DNA of 37,239 nt, from assembly GCA_021297795.1 (NCBI GenBank), contig JAJTGL010000031.1, positions 1 to 37,239 of the forward strand, written 5' to 3'. Positions 7,364 to 28,434 of the stretch are shown here, one piece after another (the stretch's first letter is position 1; the number at the start of each line of letters is the position of its first letter). Both the position numbers and the translations under genes were made by a program. A model generated the notes under the pieces. That model was given only the letters and a program-made list of their open reading frames with translations. It made no database searches and was not told the DNA's origin. The DNA is from Planctomycetaceae bacterium. GTDB lineage: Bacteria > Planctomycetota > Phycisphaerae > Phycisphaerales > SM1A02.

Positions 7364-8473
7364 TCAGCGCGCGCCGGCGCCTGCGGGATCCGGGACTGGC
7401 GTTGGTCCGCCGAGCGTGGTGGCGTCGCGCGGGATGTAGCGGAAGCCGCCCTCGCCGAAGTGCTCTGCCGCCACCGCGGCGAGGGTACCTCCGGGATCGG
7501 TCTCGAGGAACTGGATGCACTGGATCGTCGCACGCCGCACGCCGTTGCGCGGGTCGCGCGGATTGAGCCGATCGAGCAGCGCGAGCATCGACGCTCGGTC
7601 GAGTTCGTGCCGTCCTGGGCCGGTCACGGTCGTCGAGAGGAGGAACACGCAGTCGGCGCCGGATCGGAGCGCCTCCGACAGCGCCTCGACCGGGCTCGAG
7701 CGACCGCTCGGCACGACCTCGCGCCGGAGCCAGTCGACCGCGGCCGCGCGTTCGGCGCGGCTTGCGGCGTGGAGCGAGGCCGGGGTTCCGCCGAAGGCGA
7801 TCGCGCCGTCGCGGCGGAAGCAGATCAGCGCGAACTGCTGCGTCGGCTCGAGCCGGTCGAGCGAGCGCGCGACCTCGTCGACGATCGCGGGAAAGCTGCC
7901 GACCATCGAGCCCGAGGCATCGACGACGTAGGCGACCTTGGTGGCGTTGCCCGACACGAGACCGGCGAAACTCGCGCCCCCGCGACCGCTCGGGGCGTCG
8001 TCGCCCGAGCCCGATGCGCCGAACCTCCGTGCGAGGGTCTCGAGCGCGTCGTTGCGTACGCCGGACCCGTCGAGCGAGGACTCGAGCGCGCGGAGGCGCT
8101 CGGCCATGGCGTCGGTCGCGTCGGGGGCAGGCTCCTCGCGACGGGTGTGCTCGTCAGGGGTTGCGGCTGCAGCAGGGGCGAGCCGCGGTCGCGGCGGAGC
8201 GGGATCGTCGAAGTCGGCGGTGAGGACGACGGGCGGTGGCTCCTCGCGGAGGATGCCTGTCACGCTCCAGGCCGTTCCGAGGATCGCGAGCGCGATCCCC
8301 GCGTGGATCGCAAGCGAGAGCACGACTCCCGCGCCCGCGGCACCCGCCGTCGTCGGACGAGCGCGGCCGGAGGCGATGGCCGGGCTTGGTGAGAAAGCGG
8401 CGCCATCGGAGTCGCTCCGCGGCAGGGCAGATGCCCCGGTCGGTCGGCTCCCGAGTGGGTCGCTCGCGTTCAT
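7364..8473 (-). CDS. Membrane-anchored VWA-domain protein with TonB-like layout
   Basis: A 369-residue protein: disordered cytoplasmic N-terminus (1-43), one membrane span (about 44-68, 'VVLSLAIHAGIALAIL'), a Pro/Ala-rich linker (about 78-120), a short predicted coiled segment, then a von Willebrand A domain. The MIDAS motif is D185-A-S187-G-S189. The span plus Pro-rich linker is how TonB and TolA are built, but the C-terminal domain here is VWA instead of TonB-C. It is followed closely by exbB and two exbD genes, so an ExbB/D-energised role is likely by context. TAGGAT ends 8 nt before the ATG and no ribosome binding site is visible, suggesting a leaderless mRNA. The Pro-rich linker makes an older, degenerated TonB origin possible. 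Confidence 0.88.
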   Translation of the reverse strand: MNASDPLGSRPTGASALPRSDSDGAAFSPSPAIASGRARPTTAGAAGAGVVLSLAIHAGIALAILGTAWSVTGILREEPPPVVLTADFDDPAPPRPRLAPAAAATPDEHTRREEPAPDATDAMAERLRALESSLDGSGVRNDALETLARRFGASGSGDDAPSGRGGASFAGLVSGNATKVAYVVDASGSMVGSFPAIVDEVARSLDRLEPTQQFALICFRRDGAIAFGGTPASLHAASRAERAAAVDWLRREVVPSGRSSPVEALSEALRSGADCVFLLSTTVTGPGRHELDRASMLALLDRLNPRDPRNGVRRATIQCIQFLETDPGGTLAAVAAEHFGEGGFRYIPRDATTLGGPTPVPDPAGAGAR

Positions 8474-8487: not shown

Positions 8488-8528
8488 CGAGGCCAGCGGC
8501 GGCGCGACGCCGCACGCACGCCGATCGC

Positions 8529-20301: not shown

Positions 20302-20325
20302 TCTCCGGAATAGGGACGAGCAACG

Positions 20326-22939: not shown

Positions 22940-24448
22940 ATGGACTCGCAGGCCTTCGATCGGAACAGGCGCACCTTTCTGCTGACGGCCGCGGTACTCG
23001 CGGCCGGCGCGGCGGCATCGTGCGATCAACCTCAGGGTTTGAAGCGCGCTCGGAGCTCGCGCCCGCTCGACGGCGACGAGGCGAGCGGCACGTCGGCTGC
23101 GAAGGACGCCGCCGCGGCGTCCGGCGCCAAGCCGACCGATGCCTCCGCGAAGAAGACCGATGCCGACGCGAAGGCGAACCAGGCCGCGGCCGAGAGCGTG
23201 AAGCCGAAGCCGGCGCCGCCGGTCGAGCGGCCCGTCGCTCCGTCGACCGAGCCCGCGATCCGCGTGAAGAGCGGGGGACTTCCGAAAGCCGATCCCAAGA
23301 TCCAGATCGACGGGCCGGGTGCACATCTCTGGATCATCGAGCCCGGTGGCACCCAGCCCGGAACGGTCGGTGTGTCGCCAGTCGAGTTCCGCTGGACCGA
23401 TGCAGGATGGAAGGCGACCGAGGCCGCGGGCACTTCGCGCGCACGTCCGCTCGCGCTGCCCGCGCGCGCCACGCTCGAGGTGATGGCGTTGCGCGACGAG
23501 CCGCAGCGGCTTCGGTTGCGTGGAATCGAGTGGCCTGGAAGCGTGCGACTCGTGCCGCAGCCGACCGATCTCGCCGAGCCCGTCGACATCGTGCACGAGG
23601 TGCCGATGGAGGCGTACCTCCCCGGCGTGCTCGCGCAGGAACTCTTCAACAAGTGGACGGTGAACATCCACCGAGCGCAGGCCGTTGCCGCGCGCAGCTG
23701 GGCGCTCTGCGAGATCGCGCAATGGCGCGGACGACGCCACTTCGACGTGGTCGCGGGCGAGCTCGGTCAGGCGTGGGTGGGCGCGACGAAGCACCAGCGC
23801 AGCATCGATGCCGTCGCGGCGACGCGCGGCGAGGTGCTCCTCTGGGGCGGCCGGGTCGTTCCCGCCTACTACTCGAGCTGCTGCGGCGGTCAGCGAGCCA
23901 GCGCGCGCGATGCGATCTCGTCGTCGATCGTGCACGACATCCCGCCGCTCGTCGTGAACGCATCCGACGGCCGCGACTGCTGCTCGGCGGCGCCCACGTA
24001 CCGCTGGCAGTCGAAGTACGACCTCGCCACGTTCGCGCGCACGATCCCCGCATGGGCTCGCGCGGAGGGCTATGCGTCGCTCCTCAAGCTCGACGGCGTG
24101 CGGCGCATCGAGACCAGCGCCCGCAACGCGGCGGGCCGGCCCACGCGCTTCGCGATCACCGATGCGAAGGGCATGCTCTACGAGGTTCCCGCCGAGCGCC
24201 TGCGCTTCGCGTTGAACACCGATCCCGCGCGCCCCGGGGAGCTGCGTCCATCGAAGGAGCGCCTCAAGAGCGCGTTCATCGACCCGCTCATCGTGGGCAA
24301 GGAACTGGTCGTGTCGGGGCGTGGTCACGGCCACGGCGTCGGCATGTGCCAGTACGGCGCGGAGGCGATGGCGAAGAAGGGTGCGAAGCCCACCGCGATC
24401 CTGGCGCGCTACTACCCGGGCGCCGATGTCGTGAAGTCCTACGCCTGA
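22940..24448 (+). CDS. SpoIID/LytB-domain protein (putative peptidoglycan amidase-enhancer or lytic factor)
   Basis: A 502-residue exported protein. The N-terminus 'RNRRTFLLTAAVLAAGAAASC' has a twin-arginine-like RR-T-F-L motif and a possible lipobox Cys28. A low-complexity Ala/Lys/Asp linker (about 40-115) follows. The SpoIID domain spans about 220-500: 'VPMEAYLPGVLAQEL', 'HRAQAVAARSWAL', 'PAYYSSCCGGQ' and 'GRGHGHGVGMCQYGAEAMA'. SpoIID-type proteins cut or help cut peptidoglycan glycan strands. In a non-sporulating planctomycete a cell-wall remodelling role is likely. GGAAGGAG lies 7 nt before the ATG. Cys pairs (CC in the YSSCC and DCC motifs) suggest disulfides and export. Confidence 0.92.
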   Translation: MDSQAFDRNRRTFLLTAAVLAAGAAASCDQPQGLKRARSSRPLDGDEASGTSAAKDAAAASGAKPTDASAKKTDADAKANQAAAESVKPKPAPPVERPVAPSTEPAIRVKSGGLPKADPKIQIDGPGAHLWIIEPGGTQPGTVGVSPVEFRWTDAGWKATEAAGTSRARPLALPARATLEVMALRDEPQRLRLRGIEWPGSVRLVPQPTDLAEPVDIVHEVPMEAYLPGVLAQELFNKWTVNIHRAQAVAARSWALCEIAQWRGRRHFDVVAGELGQAWVGATKHQRSIDAVAATRGEVLLWGGRVVPAYYSSCCGGQRASARDAISSSIVHDIPPLVVNASDGRDCCSAAPTYRWQSKYDLATFARTIPAWARAEGYASLLKLDGVRRIETSARNAAGRPTRFAITDAKGMLYEVPAERLRFALNTDPARPGELRPSKERLKSAFIDPLIVGKELVVSGRGHGHGVGMCQYGAEAMAKKGAKPTAILARYYPGADVVKSYA

Positions 24449-25285: not shown

Positions 25286-25369
25286 GCGTGGTTGCGGTCG
25301 CGTGGTTGCGGTCGCGTGGTTGCGGTCGCGTGGTTGCGGTCGCGTGGTTGCGGTCGCGTGGTTGCGGTC
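25286..25369. repeat. Six perfect tandem copies of a 14-bp unit
   Basis: GCGTGGTTGCGGTC is repeated six times without change. The last two bases of unit six lie within the stop codon (TGA, minus strand, 25370-25368) of the DUF1570 gene, and the array starts 21 bp after the lyase pseudogene stop. The unit has no internal symmetry. Perfect identity suggests recent expansion by slippage. Confidence 0.97.
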
Positions 25370-26807
25370 ACTTGGCCGGCGGCTTCGGTGCCTTCGGCTG
25401 CTTCGGCGGCGCGGGTGCTTCCTTCGGCGAGAGCAGGTCGTAGTCGAAGTCGTCGCCGGCCTTGTTGCGTGTCCACCGGAGGACCAGTTCGCGTGGCGCA
25501 AGCCCGCGCGTGTGGATCACCGCGGGCGTCGGATGCTGCTCCTCGAGGCGTTGCTCCTTCTTCGTCTGCCTCGCGGGCTTCGCCGGGATGAACTCGAACA
25601 CGGGCTTCGTCTTCGCGAGCGGATCCTGGGGGATGTCAAGGATGGTGTCGTCGGCGCGCAGCACCTGCGTGCGGCCGTGCACCGAGACCTCGATGCTGAA
25701 GTCGCGCTGACGCAATTTCGCGAGCAGGTCGTCGATGCCATCGGTCGAGATCCCGTCGCGCGAGAGTGCGCGGAGGCCCTCCGCGAGGAATGTGAGCCGC
25801 ATGGCGGCCGTGCCGAAGGCGGTCGGCCGCATCGCCTTCGCCCATTCCTTCCAGGCCTTCTCGAAGCTCGCGATGTCGTCGGTGCCGAACGCCTGCACGA
25901 ACGCGCGTTCGCTGGGCATTCCCGCGTGGAGCAACTTCAAGTAGCCCTCGAAGCGCGGTTGGTAGCGCCCGCCTTCCGCGGTGCCGAGGAACTGGATCAT
26001 CGACCACGACTGCATGTACTGGATCGACGCGTTGCCCGAGGCGACGTTTGCATTCCACTCGTCGGGCGTCATGCGCAGGAGGCGAAGGAAGTCGAGCGTG
26101 GCATCGCGTTCGATCGCGCGCTTGATCGACTCGACCGGACCGGGGCTCGCCTGTCCGAGGATCACGCGCCCATCGACGACGACCGCCTCGCCGAAGAACT
26201 CGGCGAGTCCCTCGTTCACCCACATCGGCAGCGTGTTGGTGAAGCGGCTGAAGGCGTACTGGTGGAATCCCTCGTGCTGGATCACGTGGAAGACACGCGT
26301 GCGCGGAAGGCTCTCCACGAAGAAGGCGAGCGCCGCGCCGCGCGGCGACATGAAGAACATGCCGCCCGAACCGGTGGCGTTGATGGCGTAGGTGTTGCGG
26401 AGAACGTCGAGATAGTCGCGCTCGCGCGAGAACATCAGCACGAACGGGACTTCCGGCGCCTGCTGCGGCAGATGCGCGAATCGCCGCGCGTACTCCTCGT
26501 AGAAGAGATCGAGATGCGTGGCGTAGGTCTTGGTCTCCTCGGCGGAGAGATCGCTGAGGATGCGGTAGTGCTTCGAGCGCTGCTCGCGCCCGGCGCGCGC
26601 GTAGAAGTCGGCGTCCGCGGGCGGGGACTTCGACTGTGCGCCCGACGGCGCAGGTGCGTGCGATGCCGCGGGAACCGGTGTGGACGCCTGGGCAGCCGCC
26701 GCCGATGTCGTCGCGAGGAATCCTGCCGCGATCATGAGGGCGCACGCGGGCACGCGCGCCGCCTGCAGGCGGAAGAGGTGTTGCAAGTGCCGATCGCAGC
26801 GGGGCAT
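25368..26807 (-). CDS. Exported DUF1570-type putative zinc peptidase
   Basis: A 479-residue protein. It has a long basic n-region and a hydrophobic 'ACALMIAAGFLATTSAAAAQA' that makes a signal peptide cleaved near residue 40, then a Pro/Ala/Ser linker. The core has 'HYRILSDLSAEETKTYATHLD' (split HYRILSDLS and ETKTYATHLD), 'VFHVIQHEGFHQYA' with the zincin motif H178-E179-x-x-H182, and 'WVNEGLAEFFGE' with the likely third ligand E199. This is the gluzincin-like pattern of DUF1570, a family abundant in planctomycetes; proteolysis is inferred. The C-terminus is Lys/Pro/Ala-rich. The ATG at 26807 stands 6 nt after a TAGACT box, with no ribosome binding site. The 3' end touches the 14-bp repeat array. 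Confidence 0.88.
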   Translation of the reverse strand: MPRCDRHLQHLFRLQAARVPACALMIAAGFLATTSAAAAQASTPVPAASHAPAPSGAQSKSPPADADFYARAGREQRSKHYRILSDLSAEETKTYATHLDLFYEEYARRFAHLPQQAPEVPFVLMFSRERDYLDVLRNTYAINATGSGGMFFMSPRGAALAFFVESLPRTRVFHVIQHEGFHQYAFSRFTNTLPMWVNEGLAEFFGEAVVVDGRVILGQASPGPVESIKRAIERDATLDFLRLLRMTPDEWNANVASGNASIQYMQSWSMIQFLGTAEGGRYQPRFEGYLKLLHAGMPSERAFVQAFGTDDIASFEKAWKEWAKAMRPTAFGTAAMRLTFLAEGLRALSRDGISTDGIDDLLAKLRQRDFSIEVSVHGRTQVLRADDTILDIPQDPLAKTKPVFEFIPAKPARQTKKEQRLEEQHPTPAVIHTRGLAPRELVLRWTRNKAGDDFDYDLLSPKEAPAPPKQPKAPKPPAK

Positions 26808-26813
26808 GGGTGC

Positions 26814-26819
26814 AGTCTA
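26814..26819 (-). promoter_or_regulatory. -10 box TAGACT, leaderless promoter of the DUF1570 gene
   Basis: On the minus strand TAGACT is followed by 6 nt and the ATG at 26807. On the plus strand the overlapping TCTAAA (26816-26821) is a weak -10 candidate for the structured RNA that begins just to the right, so the two may be divergently transcribed from one site. Confidence 0.5.
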
Positions 26820-26828
26820 AATGCCGAC

Positions 26829-27305
26829 CGTCTGTTTCCCCGGGCATCGAAGCCACTGTGCGCGCTGTGGGGAACGCAAGGTGCGATAAGTCTTCAGGGC
26901 CGGAAAGTCCCGCACTTGCGCCGGGCAAATTCGCGGAAAATCGAGACTTCCTCGACCAACTCGGGCTCGGATGCGGAACAATGGACGCGTCGGAGAAATC
27001 CGACCCCGCAGACCGTTTAGGGACAGTCTGCGTTCGCAAGTCCTCGGGTTGAGGGACCTGAGGACGGGCGGAGGTAAAAAGGGACGGCGACTCGGAATCT
27101 AGACCAAGTCGCCAGTGAACGGCGGAAAGGGAACCTGCCGCTCACAAGCTCACGTCTGGGGACGCCTGGACGTGAGATTTCTCGGAGGGCCTTTCACGAC
27201 GCAAGTCGCGAAAGGAACGGGATAGGACCCATGCGCCGGGAAGCGCAAGGGACCGAACAAGGGAACGCGCCGCGTGTCGAAAGGGACACGCGGCGCGTTG
27301 TTTTT
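26829..27305 (+). ncRNA. Large structured RNA, candidate CsrA-titrating (CsrB/RsmZ-like) sRNA
   Basis: No protein frame is convincing here, but the plus strand folds into a row of hairpins: 26875-26885/26911-26920 (10 bp, one bulge); 26941-26945/26951-26955; 26989-27004 (6 bp, GAAA loop); 27007-27013/27026-27032; 27040-27050/27055-27065; 27086-27092/27107-27113; 27115-27145; 27149-27156/27169-27176; 27190-27215 (GCAA loop, one mismatch); 27228-27251; then a 15-bp terminator. GGA occurs about 25 times, TCC about 5. AGGGA, a match to the CsrA site ANGGA, occurs at 27019, 27052, 27080, 27128, 27248, 27260 and 27282, several in loops; GGGGA is in the loop at 27158-27162. The 5' end is uncertain. 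The CsrA link is inference. It lacks the conserved cores of RNase P, tmRNA, SRP and 6S RNA. Confidence 0.7.
27264..27305 (+). terminator. Strong Rho-independent terminator of the structured RNA
   Basis: AACGCGCCGCGTGTC (27264-27278) pairs perfectly with GACACGCGGCGCGTT (27285-27299) over the loop GAAAGG, followed by G and TTTTT (27301-27305). The loop and first base of the descending arm carry an AGGGA motif. Confidence 0.93.
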
Positions 27306-27322
27306 AGCGCTCGCGTTTCTGA

Positions 27323-27583
27323 GCGCTCGCGACTGGCGGGCTGCCGAGGCTTCGCCTCGGGTGCCCGCTCTCGCTCGCTCCGGCGTGGATGGCGTCGAAC
27401 GCAGCGCTCGCGACTGGCGGGCTGCCGAGGCTTCGCCTCGGGTGCCCGCTCTCGCTCGCTCCGGCGTGCATGGCGTCGAACGCAGCGCTCGCGACTGGCG
27501 GGGCGTGCATGGCGTCGAACGCAGCGCTCGCGACTGGCGGGCTGCCGAGGCTTCGCCTCGGGTGCCCGCGCTCGCTCTGGCGC
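27323..27583. repeat. 81-bp direct repeat array with internal hairpin, four units
   Basis: Units start at 27323, 27404, 27485 and 27524. Units 1 and 2 are 81 bp and almost identical (one change, GGAT against GCAT). Unit 3 is 39 bp, lacking a 42-bp block. Unit 4 is cut short near 27583. An extra partial start (GCGCTCGC) is at 27308. Each full unit contains CCGAGGC-TTC-GCCTCGG, a 7-bp hairpin. The array fills the space between the RNA terminator and the 3' end of the CpcT-like gene; no gene is seen in it. Confidence 0.93.
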
Positions 27584-27610: not shown

Positions 27611-28285
27611 TCACTCTCCCACGCGGTCGAACACGTACGGACCCTTCTTCGCGCCCCAGACCTGTGCATCCGTTGCATCAAAGCCACGGTCCCACGTGCG
27701 CAGCACCGCGCGTGTCAGCCACACTTCGCTCGTCGCGTACGACGCGCCGCGCAGCAAGCTCGCGCAGTTCGAACCAACCGTCGCACCGCTCCACGAGCCG
27801 TCGGCTGCGGGTGAGAGTTCGATCGAGCATCCTTCGCGCGTGACAAGAGCCTCCGGCGTGTCGGTGGCGAACCGCGCCGGATCCGCCCACGCACCCACAC
27901 GGTCCGCCGCGTTCGGCAGTTCGAACACCTGGCTCTCGACGCACGTCCGCTCCGCCGTCGAGCGGTCGACCAGACGGTAGATGCGCTGTCGGTAGGGCTT
28001 GTCGAGCGCGGTCGCCATCGCCTGCTCGACGTAGAGCCACGGGCCATCCCGGCGATCGGTCCAGATCGGGGCCATCCGGAGATGGACCTCGAAGAACTCG
28101 GGGTCGGACTTTGCCTGCGCGGCGCTCGTGAAGTGCCCGGTGAGGAGCGAGGCCACCTCGCGGGTCTTCGGCTCGGGATCGCGCGCGAGGCCTGCACAAC
28201 CCCCGCAGGCCAGGACAAGCAGGGCGGTGGCCGCACGGAGGGCGTGGCCGATCGAACGAGGCGCGCGACGGAGTGCCGAATGCAT
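27611..28285 (-). CDS. CpcT/CpeT family lipoprotein
   Basis: A 224-residue protein with the CpcT/CpeT fold pattern: 'VASLLTGHFTSAAQAKSDPEFF' (split SLLTGHFTSAAQA and DPEFFEVHLRM), 'WTDRRDGPWLYVEQAMA', 'PYRQRIYRLVDR', 'LREGC'-like 'VTREGCSIEL', 'SLLRGASYATSEVWLT' and 'WDRGFDATDAQVWGAKKGPY'. In cyanobacteria the family attaches bilins to phycobiliproteins; homologues in non-phototrophs have no known substrate, so bilin lyase activity should not be assumed. The N-terminus has a signal with lipobox V-L-A-C27, indicating a lipoprotein. The ATG at 28285 follows a TAGATT box at 8 nt; an open frame extends further upstream but has no support. Confidence 0.88.
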   Translation of the reverse strand: MHSALRRAPRSIGHALRAATALLVLACGGCAGLARDPEPKTREVASLLTGHFTSAAQAKSDPEFFEVHLRMAPIWTDRRDGPWLYVEQAMATALDKPYRQRIYRLVDRSTAERTCVESQVFELPNAADRVGAWADPARFATDTPEALVTREGCSIELSPAADGSWSGATVGSNCASLLRGASYATSEVWLTRAVLRTWDRGFDATDAQVWGAKKGPYVFDRVGE

Positions 28286-28293
28286 GGGCCGGG

Positions 28294-28299
28294 AATCTA
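28294..28299 (-). promoter_or_regulatory. -10 box TAGATT, leaderless promoter of the CpcT-like gene
   Basis: On the minus strand TAGATT is followed by 8 nt and the ATG at 28285. There is no Shine-Dalgarno sequence. Confidence 0.5.
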
Positions 28300-28332
28300 T
28301 CCGGTGTTTCCGGCGGCATCTCTCCGCGCCGC

Positions 28333-28348
28333 GCGCCCCCGGGGGCGC
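28333..28348. promoter_or_regulatory. 16-bp perfect palindrome between divergent promoters, possible operator
   Basis: GCGCCCCCGGGGGCGC lies between the CpcT-like gene's -10 box (28299-28294) and a TAGACT box (28360-28365) upstream of citrate synthase. It covers the place expected for the -35 of the latter. A repressor or activator site is plausible, but a chance GC palindrome cannot be excluded. Confidence 0.35.
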
Positions 28349-28359
28349 CGCCGACGCTG

Positions 28360-28365
28360 TAGACT
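28360..28365 (+). promoter_or_regulatory. -10 box TAGACT upstream of citrate synthase
   Basis: TAGACT lies 69 nt before the ATG at 28435, giving a leader of about 60 nt that ends with a weak CTGGAG ribosome binding sequence. Confidence 0.4.
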
Positions 28366-28434
28366 CGCCGTTTCCGCGCGCGGCCCGTTTTCGGTTCCGC
28401 GGCGTCGGCACGCAAACCCGACTGGAGTCCAGAG

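Follow-up and report, generated by a model that had tools for sequence, protein, structure and literature searches.

The recognition consensus of CsrA is A-N-GGA, which AGGGA fits, and the E. coli RNAs CsrB and CsrC carry about 18–22 GGA motifs. CsrA belongs among the proteins known to bind GGA presented in hairpin loops (PMC4894983), and RNAs that titrate it are described as widespread in Gammaproteobacteria (PMC7652899, PMC4894983). A survey states that BarA-UvrY, the activator of these RNAs, is unique to Gammaproteobacteria and strongly anticorrelated with fliW, and proposes that Planctomycetes are among the groups that may use FliW (PMC4682653). A 2020 review describes the joint use of FliW and sRNAs in any species as undetermined (PMC7652899). 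Our search of the open-access literature found no report of a CsrB-like or CsrA-sponge RNA in planctomycetes, of a noncoding RNA motif in Phycisphaerae, or of a CsrB-like RNA alongside FliW since 2018.

Here we examined a planctomycete contig of 37,239 nt (the window), in which the original prediction had placed a CsrB/RsmZ-like, CsrA-sequestering RNA at 26829–27305. The comparisons reported below support that candidate, and neither the Rfam search, the search for csrA nor the covariation analysis refuted it. Like RsmX, RsmY and RsmZ of Pseudomonas, the planctomycete RNA is short, with several hairpins, A(N)GGA at their tips and in linkers, and a terminator hairpin; unlike them, its sites are AGGGA in an A-rich context, it has two long invariant blocks (the linker and hairpin 5), and it has no covariance-model match, the RsmY model giving 18.2 bits against a cut-off of 57. 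With CsrB and CsrC it shares a design seen in CsrA-titrating RNAs, namely hairpins that carry multiple GGA, but it has fewer sites (2–9 AGGGA among 24 transcripts) and no Rfam match, and its genus also has FliW (16 of 16 genomes). The FliW-CsrA system of Bacillus and Campylobacter has its counterpart in fliW beside csrA1 in the planctomycete genus; in that system, however, the antagonist is a protein, whereas the planctomycete RNA is present also in a genus without a csrA1-level or fliW match (g5).

A scan with the CsrB, CsrC and RsmX/Y/Z models and all of Rfam revealed no match at gathering score for the window RNA (only tRNA elsewhere in the window) and none among the loci of 20 relatives. 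Membership in a known Rfam family, including CsrB, CsrC, RsmX, RsmY and RsmZ, was therefore rejected, and no other RNA class was matched. A phage origin was likewise discarded, with no match in a phage collection. We think that the RNA is CsrB-like in its working, without detectable homology to CsrB, and it appears to be a CsrA sponge that evolved independently.

Composition and extent of the locus

Exact counts in 26829–27305 gave 25 GGA against 5 TCC, confirming the strand bias first reported, together with 7 AGGGA and 0 TCCCT. Dinucleotide shuffles of the same stretch contained 0.95 AGGGA on average and 0 of 2000 reached seven, in agreement with the earlier expectation of about one or fewer. 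When the whole window was scanned, no other 316-nt stretch on either strand held more than two AGGGA, and all five AAGGGA of the plus strand fell within 26829–27305. The fold of this stretch was unusually stable (z = −7.9; 0 of 100 shuffles equally stable).

The RNA locus is intergenic, conserved and single-copy. Identity among 16 relatives, calculated per 30-nt bin, was 0.23–0.45 at 26790–26969, 0.56 at 26970–26999 and up to 0.96 in the core. Because identity is low there, the 5′ ~150 nt of 26829–27305 lie outside the conserved RNA, and the low identity before 26970, together with promoter-like blocks just upstream of 26985, places the transcript start most likely at ~26985. These blocks (26955–26984, plus strand) align in 16 genus sequences and comprise a −35-like CCAACTC, often GCAACAC in relatives, and a −10-like GGAACAATG; similar blocks (GGAACAC and GCGAATATG) occur in genus g33. 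Since they do not match the sigma-70 consensus, the promoter is a putative one, with transcription expected to start near 26985–26990. Of the features of a free-standing transcript, the locus shows a terminator of its own and promoter-like blocks that are conserved, albeit without a sigma-70 consensus match. The transcript probably spans ~26985–27304, rather than starting from 26829. Of the ~480 nt with ~10 hairpins and a 15-bp terminator originally proposed, the terminator stands, while the extent is reduced to a start near 26985 and to eight hairpins plus the terminator.

Structure and covariation of the RNA

The predicted RNA of the window (26985–27304, plus strand, ~320 nt) is the long form, folding as eight hairpins and a terminator hairpin, and is conserved in all 16 genomes of the genus. 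All elements below lie on the plus strand. Hairpin 1 (26989–27004) has no conserved GGA, and every one of its stem pairs varies, 6 of 6 being changed on both sides. Hairpin 2 (27008–27031) bears AGGGA at its tip (27019), within an invariant TTAGGGA (16/16), above a stem in which 4 of 5 pairs are double-changed. The tip of hairpin 3 (27033–27072), GAGGGAC (27052), is also invariant, and of its 12 pairs 3 are double-changed and 7 never vary. The linker that follows (27073–27085), GGTAAAAAGGGAC with AGGGA at 27080, is invariant in 16 of 16 sequences, and its GGA has an unpaired probability of 0.68–0.84. Hairpin 4 (27086–27113) is variable, with 7 of 10 pairs double-changed and no conserved GGA. 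In hairpin 5 (27115–27145), the 9-nt loop AAAGGGAAC, which contains AGGGA 27128, and 8 of 10 stem pairs are invariant in the genus; an alignment of 10 genus sequences with 12 from g33 shows its GAAAGGGAAC to be invariant in the latter as well. Hairpin 6 (27149–27176) carries GGAC in its loop, with 10 of 11 pairs double-changed and the loop GGA kept in 15 of 16 sequences. Fold and alignment place two further hairpins in the long form only: hairpin 7 (27180–27222) and hairpin 8 (27225–27254), with the loop CGGGAA and AGGGA 27248 in its 3′ arm. The RNA ends in an intrinsic terminator (27264–27304), with AAGGGAA (27260) upstream, a 15-bp stem (27264–27299), a GAAAGG loop (AGGGA 27282) and the T-run GTTTTTAG; AAAGGG also stands at the terminator tip in most sequences from other genera.

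Each of the 16 genus genomes examined has one copy of the RNA. The long form, with extra hairpins and a later terminator, occurs in 11 of 16, including the window; in the short form (L012, L015, L016 and L018) a T-run directly follows hairpin 6, and L014 has a different terminator immediately 3′ of that hairpin. The long and short forms thus differ by whole hairpins. All 16 carry four core AGGGA sites (hairpin 2, hairpin 3, the linker and hairpin 5), with 4 to 7 AGGGA per sequence before the first T-run.

We scored covariation on a structure that we specified ourselves, using alignment A2 (16 sequences, 54 pairs, 858 cells). Of these cells 96.4% pair, against 30–45% for slid partner structures. 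Changes on both sides occur in 30 of 54 pairs, giving 109 double-changed cells versus 32.2 in shuffles, with 0 of 500 shuffles reaching 109; most of this signal comes from hairpins 1, 2, 4 and 6. Every one of the 20 AGGGA columns is invariant, compared with 65 of 189 other columns. In hairpins 3 and 5 the stem, too, hardly varies, so that conservation of the loop alone is not separable there, and hairpin 5, in which 8 of 10 pairs never vary, is neutral as covariation evidence. As judged from these alignments, the locus is a conserved structured RNA with covarying stems and invariant core AGGGA, which is the outcome of the comparison with homologues that the original prediction had called for.

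Accessibility of the GGGA sites

The original prediction had put AGGGA sites in hairpin loops (27019, 27128, 27282) or next to stems (27080, 27260). Folding of the window sequence with RNAfold upheld this for 27128, a fully open loop, and for 27080, an open linker. At the tip sites 27019 and 27052, the GA is paired with the preceding UU, leaving the GGA at 27021 and 27054 partly paired; 27282 lies half within the terminator loop, and 27248 and 27260 are largely paired when the window sequence alone is folded.

We then considered 24 transcripts from 10 genera, whose ends were placed by eye. The mean unpaired probability was 0.57 for GGGA; for G overall it was 0.30, and GGGA in shuffled sequences had 0.37. 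GGGA was more open than in the transcript's own shuffles in 23 of 24 cases, L139 (g42) being the exception. The largest number of AGGGA in a transcript was nine, in L160, where 1.16 were expected. Enrichment was weak in g8, g9, g36 and g35, with 2–3 sites and 9–31 of 200 shuffles as high. Several GGA motifs on tips and linkers beyond chance were therefore found for the RNA, weakly in these four genera. In the g33 consensus structure the GGG at the tip of the terminator is base-paired; for this genus the terminator may therefore not serve for binding.

Distribution within the family

Searched over 181 family genomes, a model built on the genus RNA (R1) matched, outside the genus, five diverged relatives in g33 and one doubtful locus in g12 (L072), which was rejected as a terminator-like hairpin with only 26 positions matched. 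By blastn, the RNA was found in 15 of 16 g33 genomes. When 400 genomes of the order were searched with a g33 model (R2), 56 matches had E ≤ 0.05, two of them marginal and outside the family (L171 and L172, in G225 and G211); both were terminator-like, without an AGGGA cluster, and were rejected. A third model (R3), of the 3′ module, was searched over the 181 family genomes and its matches outside the genus accepted at E ≤ 1e−3, yielding 62 in 10 genera: g5 (17/19), g8 (3/3), g9 (1/1), g19 (2/2), g33 (16/16, against 13 by R2), g35 (1/2), g36 (6/8, including two weak matches at 3–5e−4 counted on score alone), g42 (12/14), g44 (3/3) and g45 (1/1). Left out were matches in G150 (g39; 7.3e−4) and elsewhere in G008 (g1; 5.6e−4), an opposite-strand echo in G055, and all above 1e−3. 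The second matches in G000 (L019) and G009 (L020), both short, were not AGGGA clusters and were discarded.

The 16 of 16 in the window's genus (g1) bring the total to 78 of the 181 family genomes, in 11 of 45 genera; the RNA was undetected in 34 of 45 genera by the R1 and R3 searches of the 181 genomes. R3 over 397 genomes from the class returned 13 matches at E ≤ 1e−4, of which 12 lay inside the family; the one outside, in G225 and at another place than its R2 match, was marginal and partial and was rejected. Neither R2 over the 400 genomes of the order nor R3 over the 397 of the class found a convincing homologue outside the family. By these homology searches, the RNA is carried by many members of one mostly uncultured planctomycete family.

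Members of all 11 RNA-bearing genera were examined in part. Between genera, stems, lengths and hairpin numbers change, and AAGGGA-type sites mostly recur, the repeated loop in g8 being CGGGAA in place of the AAGGGA type. In a comparison of g1 (10 of 16 aligned) with g33 (12 of 15), 18 of 24 invariant columns lay in AAAGGGAC and GAAAGGGAAC.

By Pfam, the divergent neighbour in the window encodes a DUF1570/peptidase MA-like protein (25368–26807, minus strand) and the convergent one a CpeT/CpcT family protein (27611–28411, minus strand); a SpoIID gene lies at 22940–24448. Outside the genus, neighbours were checked at four loci. The DUF1570 gene is the divergent neighbour in g42 (L139) also, a PQQ_2 gene stands downstream of the RNA in g33 and g42, and in g44 the downstream gene, on the opposite strand, is SpoIID. 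As gene order indicates, these shared neighbours (DUF1570, PQQ_2, SpoIID) link the RNA loci across genera.

Two other elements adjoin the locus. Just past the terminator, at 27322–27541, is an 81-bp GC-rich palindromic unit (GCGCTCGCGACTGGCGGGC...GCCTCGGGTGCCCGC) in 2.2 copies that are 99% identical and contain overlapping sub-repeats of 39 bp. In L004 and L005, too, the RNA is followed by similar units. On the other side, TAGACTGC (26805–26819) lies 4 nt upstream of the divergent DUF1570 ATG on the minus strand, and CAGTCTAAA recurs in several relatives, as expected of the −10 box of a leaderless mRNA.

CsrA1, CsrA2 and FliW

A csrA gene (PF02599) was found in 16 of 16 genus genomes and 177 of 181 family genomes, so the protein that the original prediction depended on is present. 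Among RNA-bearing genomes 77 of 78 have a csrA match, the one without being G040 (83% complete), and in 33 of 45 genera a csrA match is present with the RNA undetected. Because csrA is near-universal in the family, its co-occurrence with the RNA is not evidence.

The family has two CsrA types. CsrA1, at ~84 bits, is a standard CsrA and adjoins fliW; in the window's genome, FliW lies at 8000–8353 and CsrA at 8490–8645 of contig C29. The diverged CsrA2 (~53 bits, ~70–86 aa) falls below the NCBIfam csrA equivalog cut-offs in the two sequences tested, and was examined at 28 loci from several genera (27 genes: L002, L039–L051, L209–L221, L223). It is homologous to E. coli CsrA (1y00, 8.6e−8), with a 4-residue insertion, and keeps the VHR segment, which includes the RNA-contacting arginine. 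In g5 (G022–G040), 18 of 19 genomes have a CsrA2-level match and 17 of 19 the RNA, and none of the 19 has a CsrA1-level or fliW match, five of the CsrA sequences having been examined directly. G125 (g35) and G180 (g45) have a CsrA2-level match only. Retention of the RNA in g5 and the CsrA2-level matches of these two genomes point to CsrA2 as the common partner, its sharing by the RNA-bearing genera being based for most genomes on csrA match counts and not on each sequence.

The 60 nt upstream of csrA1 (L001, L024–L038) contain GGGC-A[CT]GGA[AT]-GCCC just before the SD in 15 of 16 sequences, and AGGAC in the other; RNAfold forms this hairpin in 14 of 16. The element is a probable CsrA autoregulatory site, and its loop suggests both autoregulation and the reading of A-N-GGA loops by the CsrA of this group. 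In g1, the csrA2 leaders have AGGAGG between short arms (for example GGAC/GUCC and UGAC/GUCA), and RNAfold often does not form this hairpin; an autoregulatory hairpin there is suggestive and is given little weight.

A probable CsrA-titrating role and its alternatives

In our judgement, the locus quite probably encodes a CsrB/RsmZ-like, free-standing sRNA that titrates a CsrA-family protein, most likely CsrA2. The RNA would have a promoter and a terminator of its own, the repeated (A)AGGGA on hairpin tips and the linker would bind CsrA dimers, and titration of CsrA would release the mRNAs that CsrA represses. CsrA2 would be a likelier partner than the flagellar CsrA1, although both might be bound.

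Among other readings, the RNA could serve another RNA-binding protein, one with AAGGGA as its recognition site, as a decoy or scaffold, CsrA being uninvolved. AAGGGA, with three Gs, is more specific than the GGA of CsrA, and the sites in the csrA leaders are ACGGA and AGGAG rather than AGGGA. However, AGGGA conforms to the A-N-GGA consensus, and a csrA match accompanies the RNA in nearly every genome that bears it, though csrA is near-universal. A further point against such a protein is that GGA in hairpin loops is what the CsrA family is known for (PMC4894983), and we regard this reading as unlikely.

The MATE gene had been named as one possible target. Its AGGGA, at 20312 and 14 nt before the ATG, occupies an ordinary SD-zone place. 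We also examined 250 gene leaders from 400 kb of a relative's genome (G015), in which gene calls are rough. AGGGA was not enriched in these leaders (12 vs 8.7 shuffled), AGGGA hairpins numbered 1 vs 0.75 and AGGA hairpins 9 vs 4.75 (sd 2.0), and an excess of A-N-GGA at −20 to −11 (26/60) coincided with SD-like AAGGA/AGGAG. Since AGGGA is not enriched, a broad AGGGA regulon and targets including MATE are unsupported, and MATE was dropped as a target.

The same leaders bear on the idea of a base-pairing sRNA, whose repeated G-rich seed loops would pair with UCCCU in many mRNAs. Identical exposed loops can serve as repeated seeds, and TCCCT occurred 19 times versus 13.0 in shuffled leaders, but this excess is small and in kind no larger than that of AGGGA, and an identical motif in both linker and tips suits a protein site better, which makes pairing very unlikely. 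Slightly less probable still is a divergent housekeeping RNA, such as RNase P RNA, 6S RNA or others. A single copy of ~320 nt in every genus genome would suit such an RNA, and for 6S RNA no clear match was obtained elsewhere (0 of 16 genomes above cut-off, weak matches in 4 of 16). The weak 6S matches nevertheless lie at places different from the RNA's, and a chain of separate hairpins in variable number is unlike 6S RNA, a long rod with a bulge. RNase P RNA was located elsewhere in 15 of the 16 genomes, with 14 matches above cut-off; both identities were rejected, and the lack of an Rfam match and the many family genera in which the RNA is undetected speak against a housekeeping role in general. 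Hardly credible is a role in cis as the leader or trailer of an adjacent gene, or an origin as a cluster of GC-rich hairpins formed by chance: repeats directly follow the RNA in the window, and in g33 (L074) and g42 (L139) the next gene downstream, PQQ_2 (BamB-like), is on the same strand, so that a leader role past the terminator may be possible there, but both flanking genes in the window and the downstream SpoIID in g44 (L151) are on the other strand, and the RNA has its own terminator and covarying stems.

Returning to the CsrA-titrating RNA, we see an even chance that this one family has two parallel systems per cell, in which FliW would control the flagellar CsrA1 and a CsrB-like RNA that evolved independently would control the diverged CsrA2, with RNA and CsrA2 persisting where CsrA1 and FliW were lost together. 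In genomes with fliW-csrA1, csrA2 and the RNA, the question of whether FliW and sRNAs act jointly becomes directly testable. If the titrating role is true, the sponge design arose at least twice.
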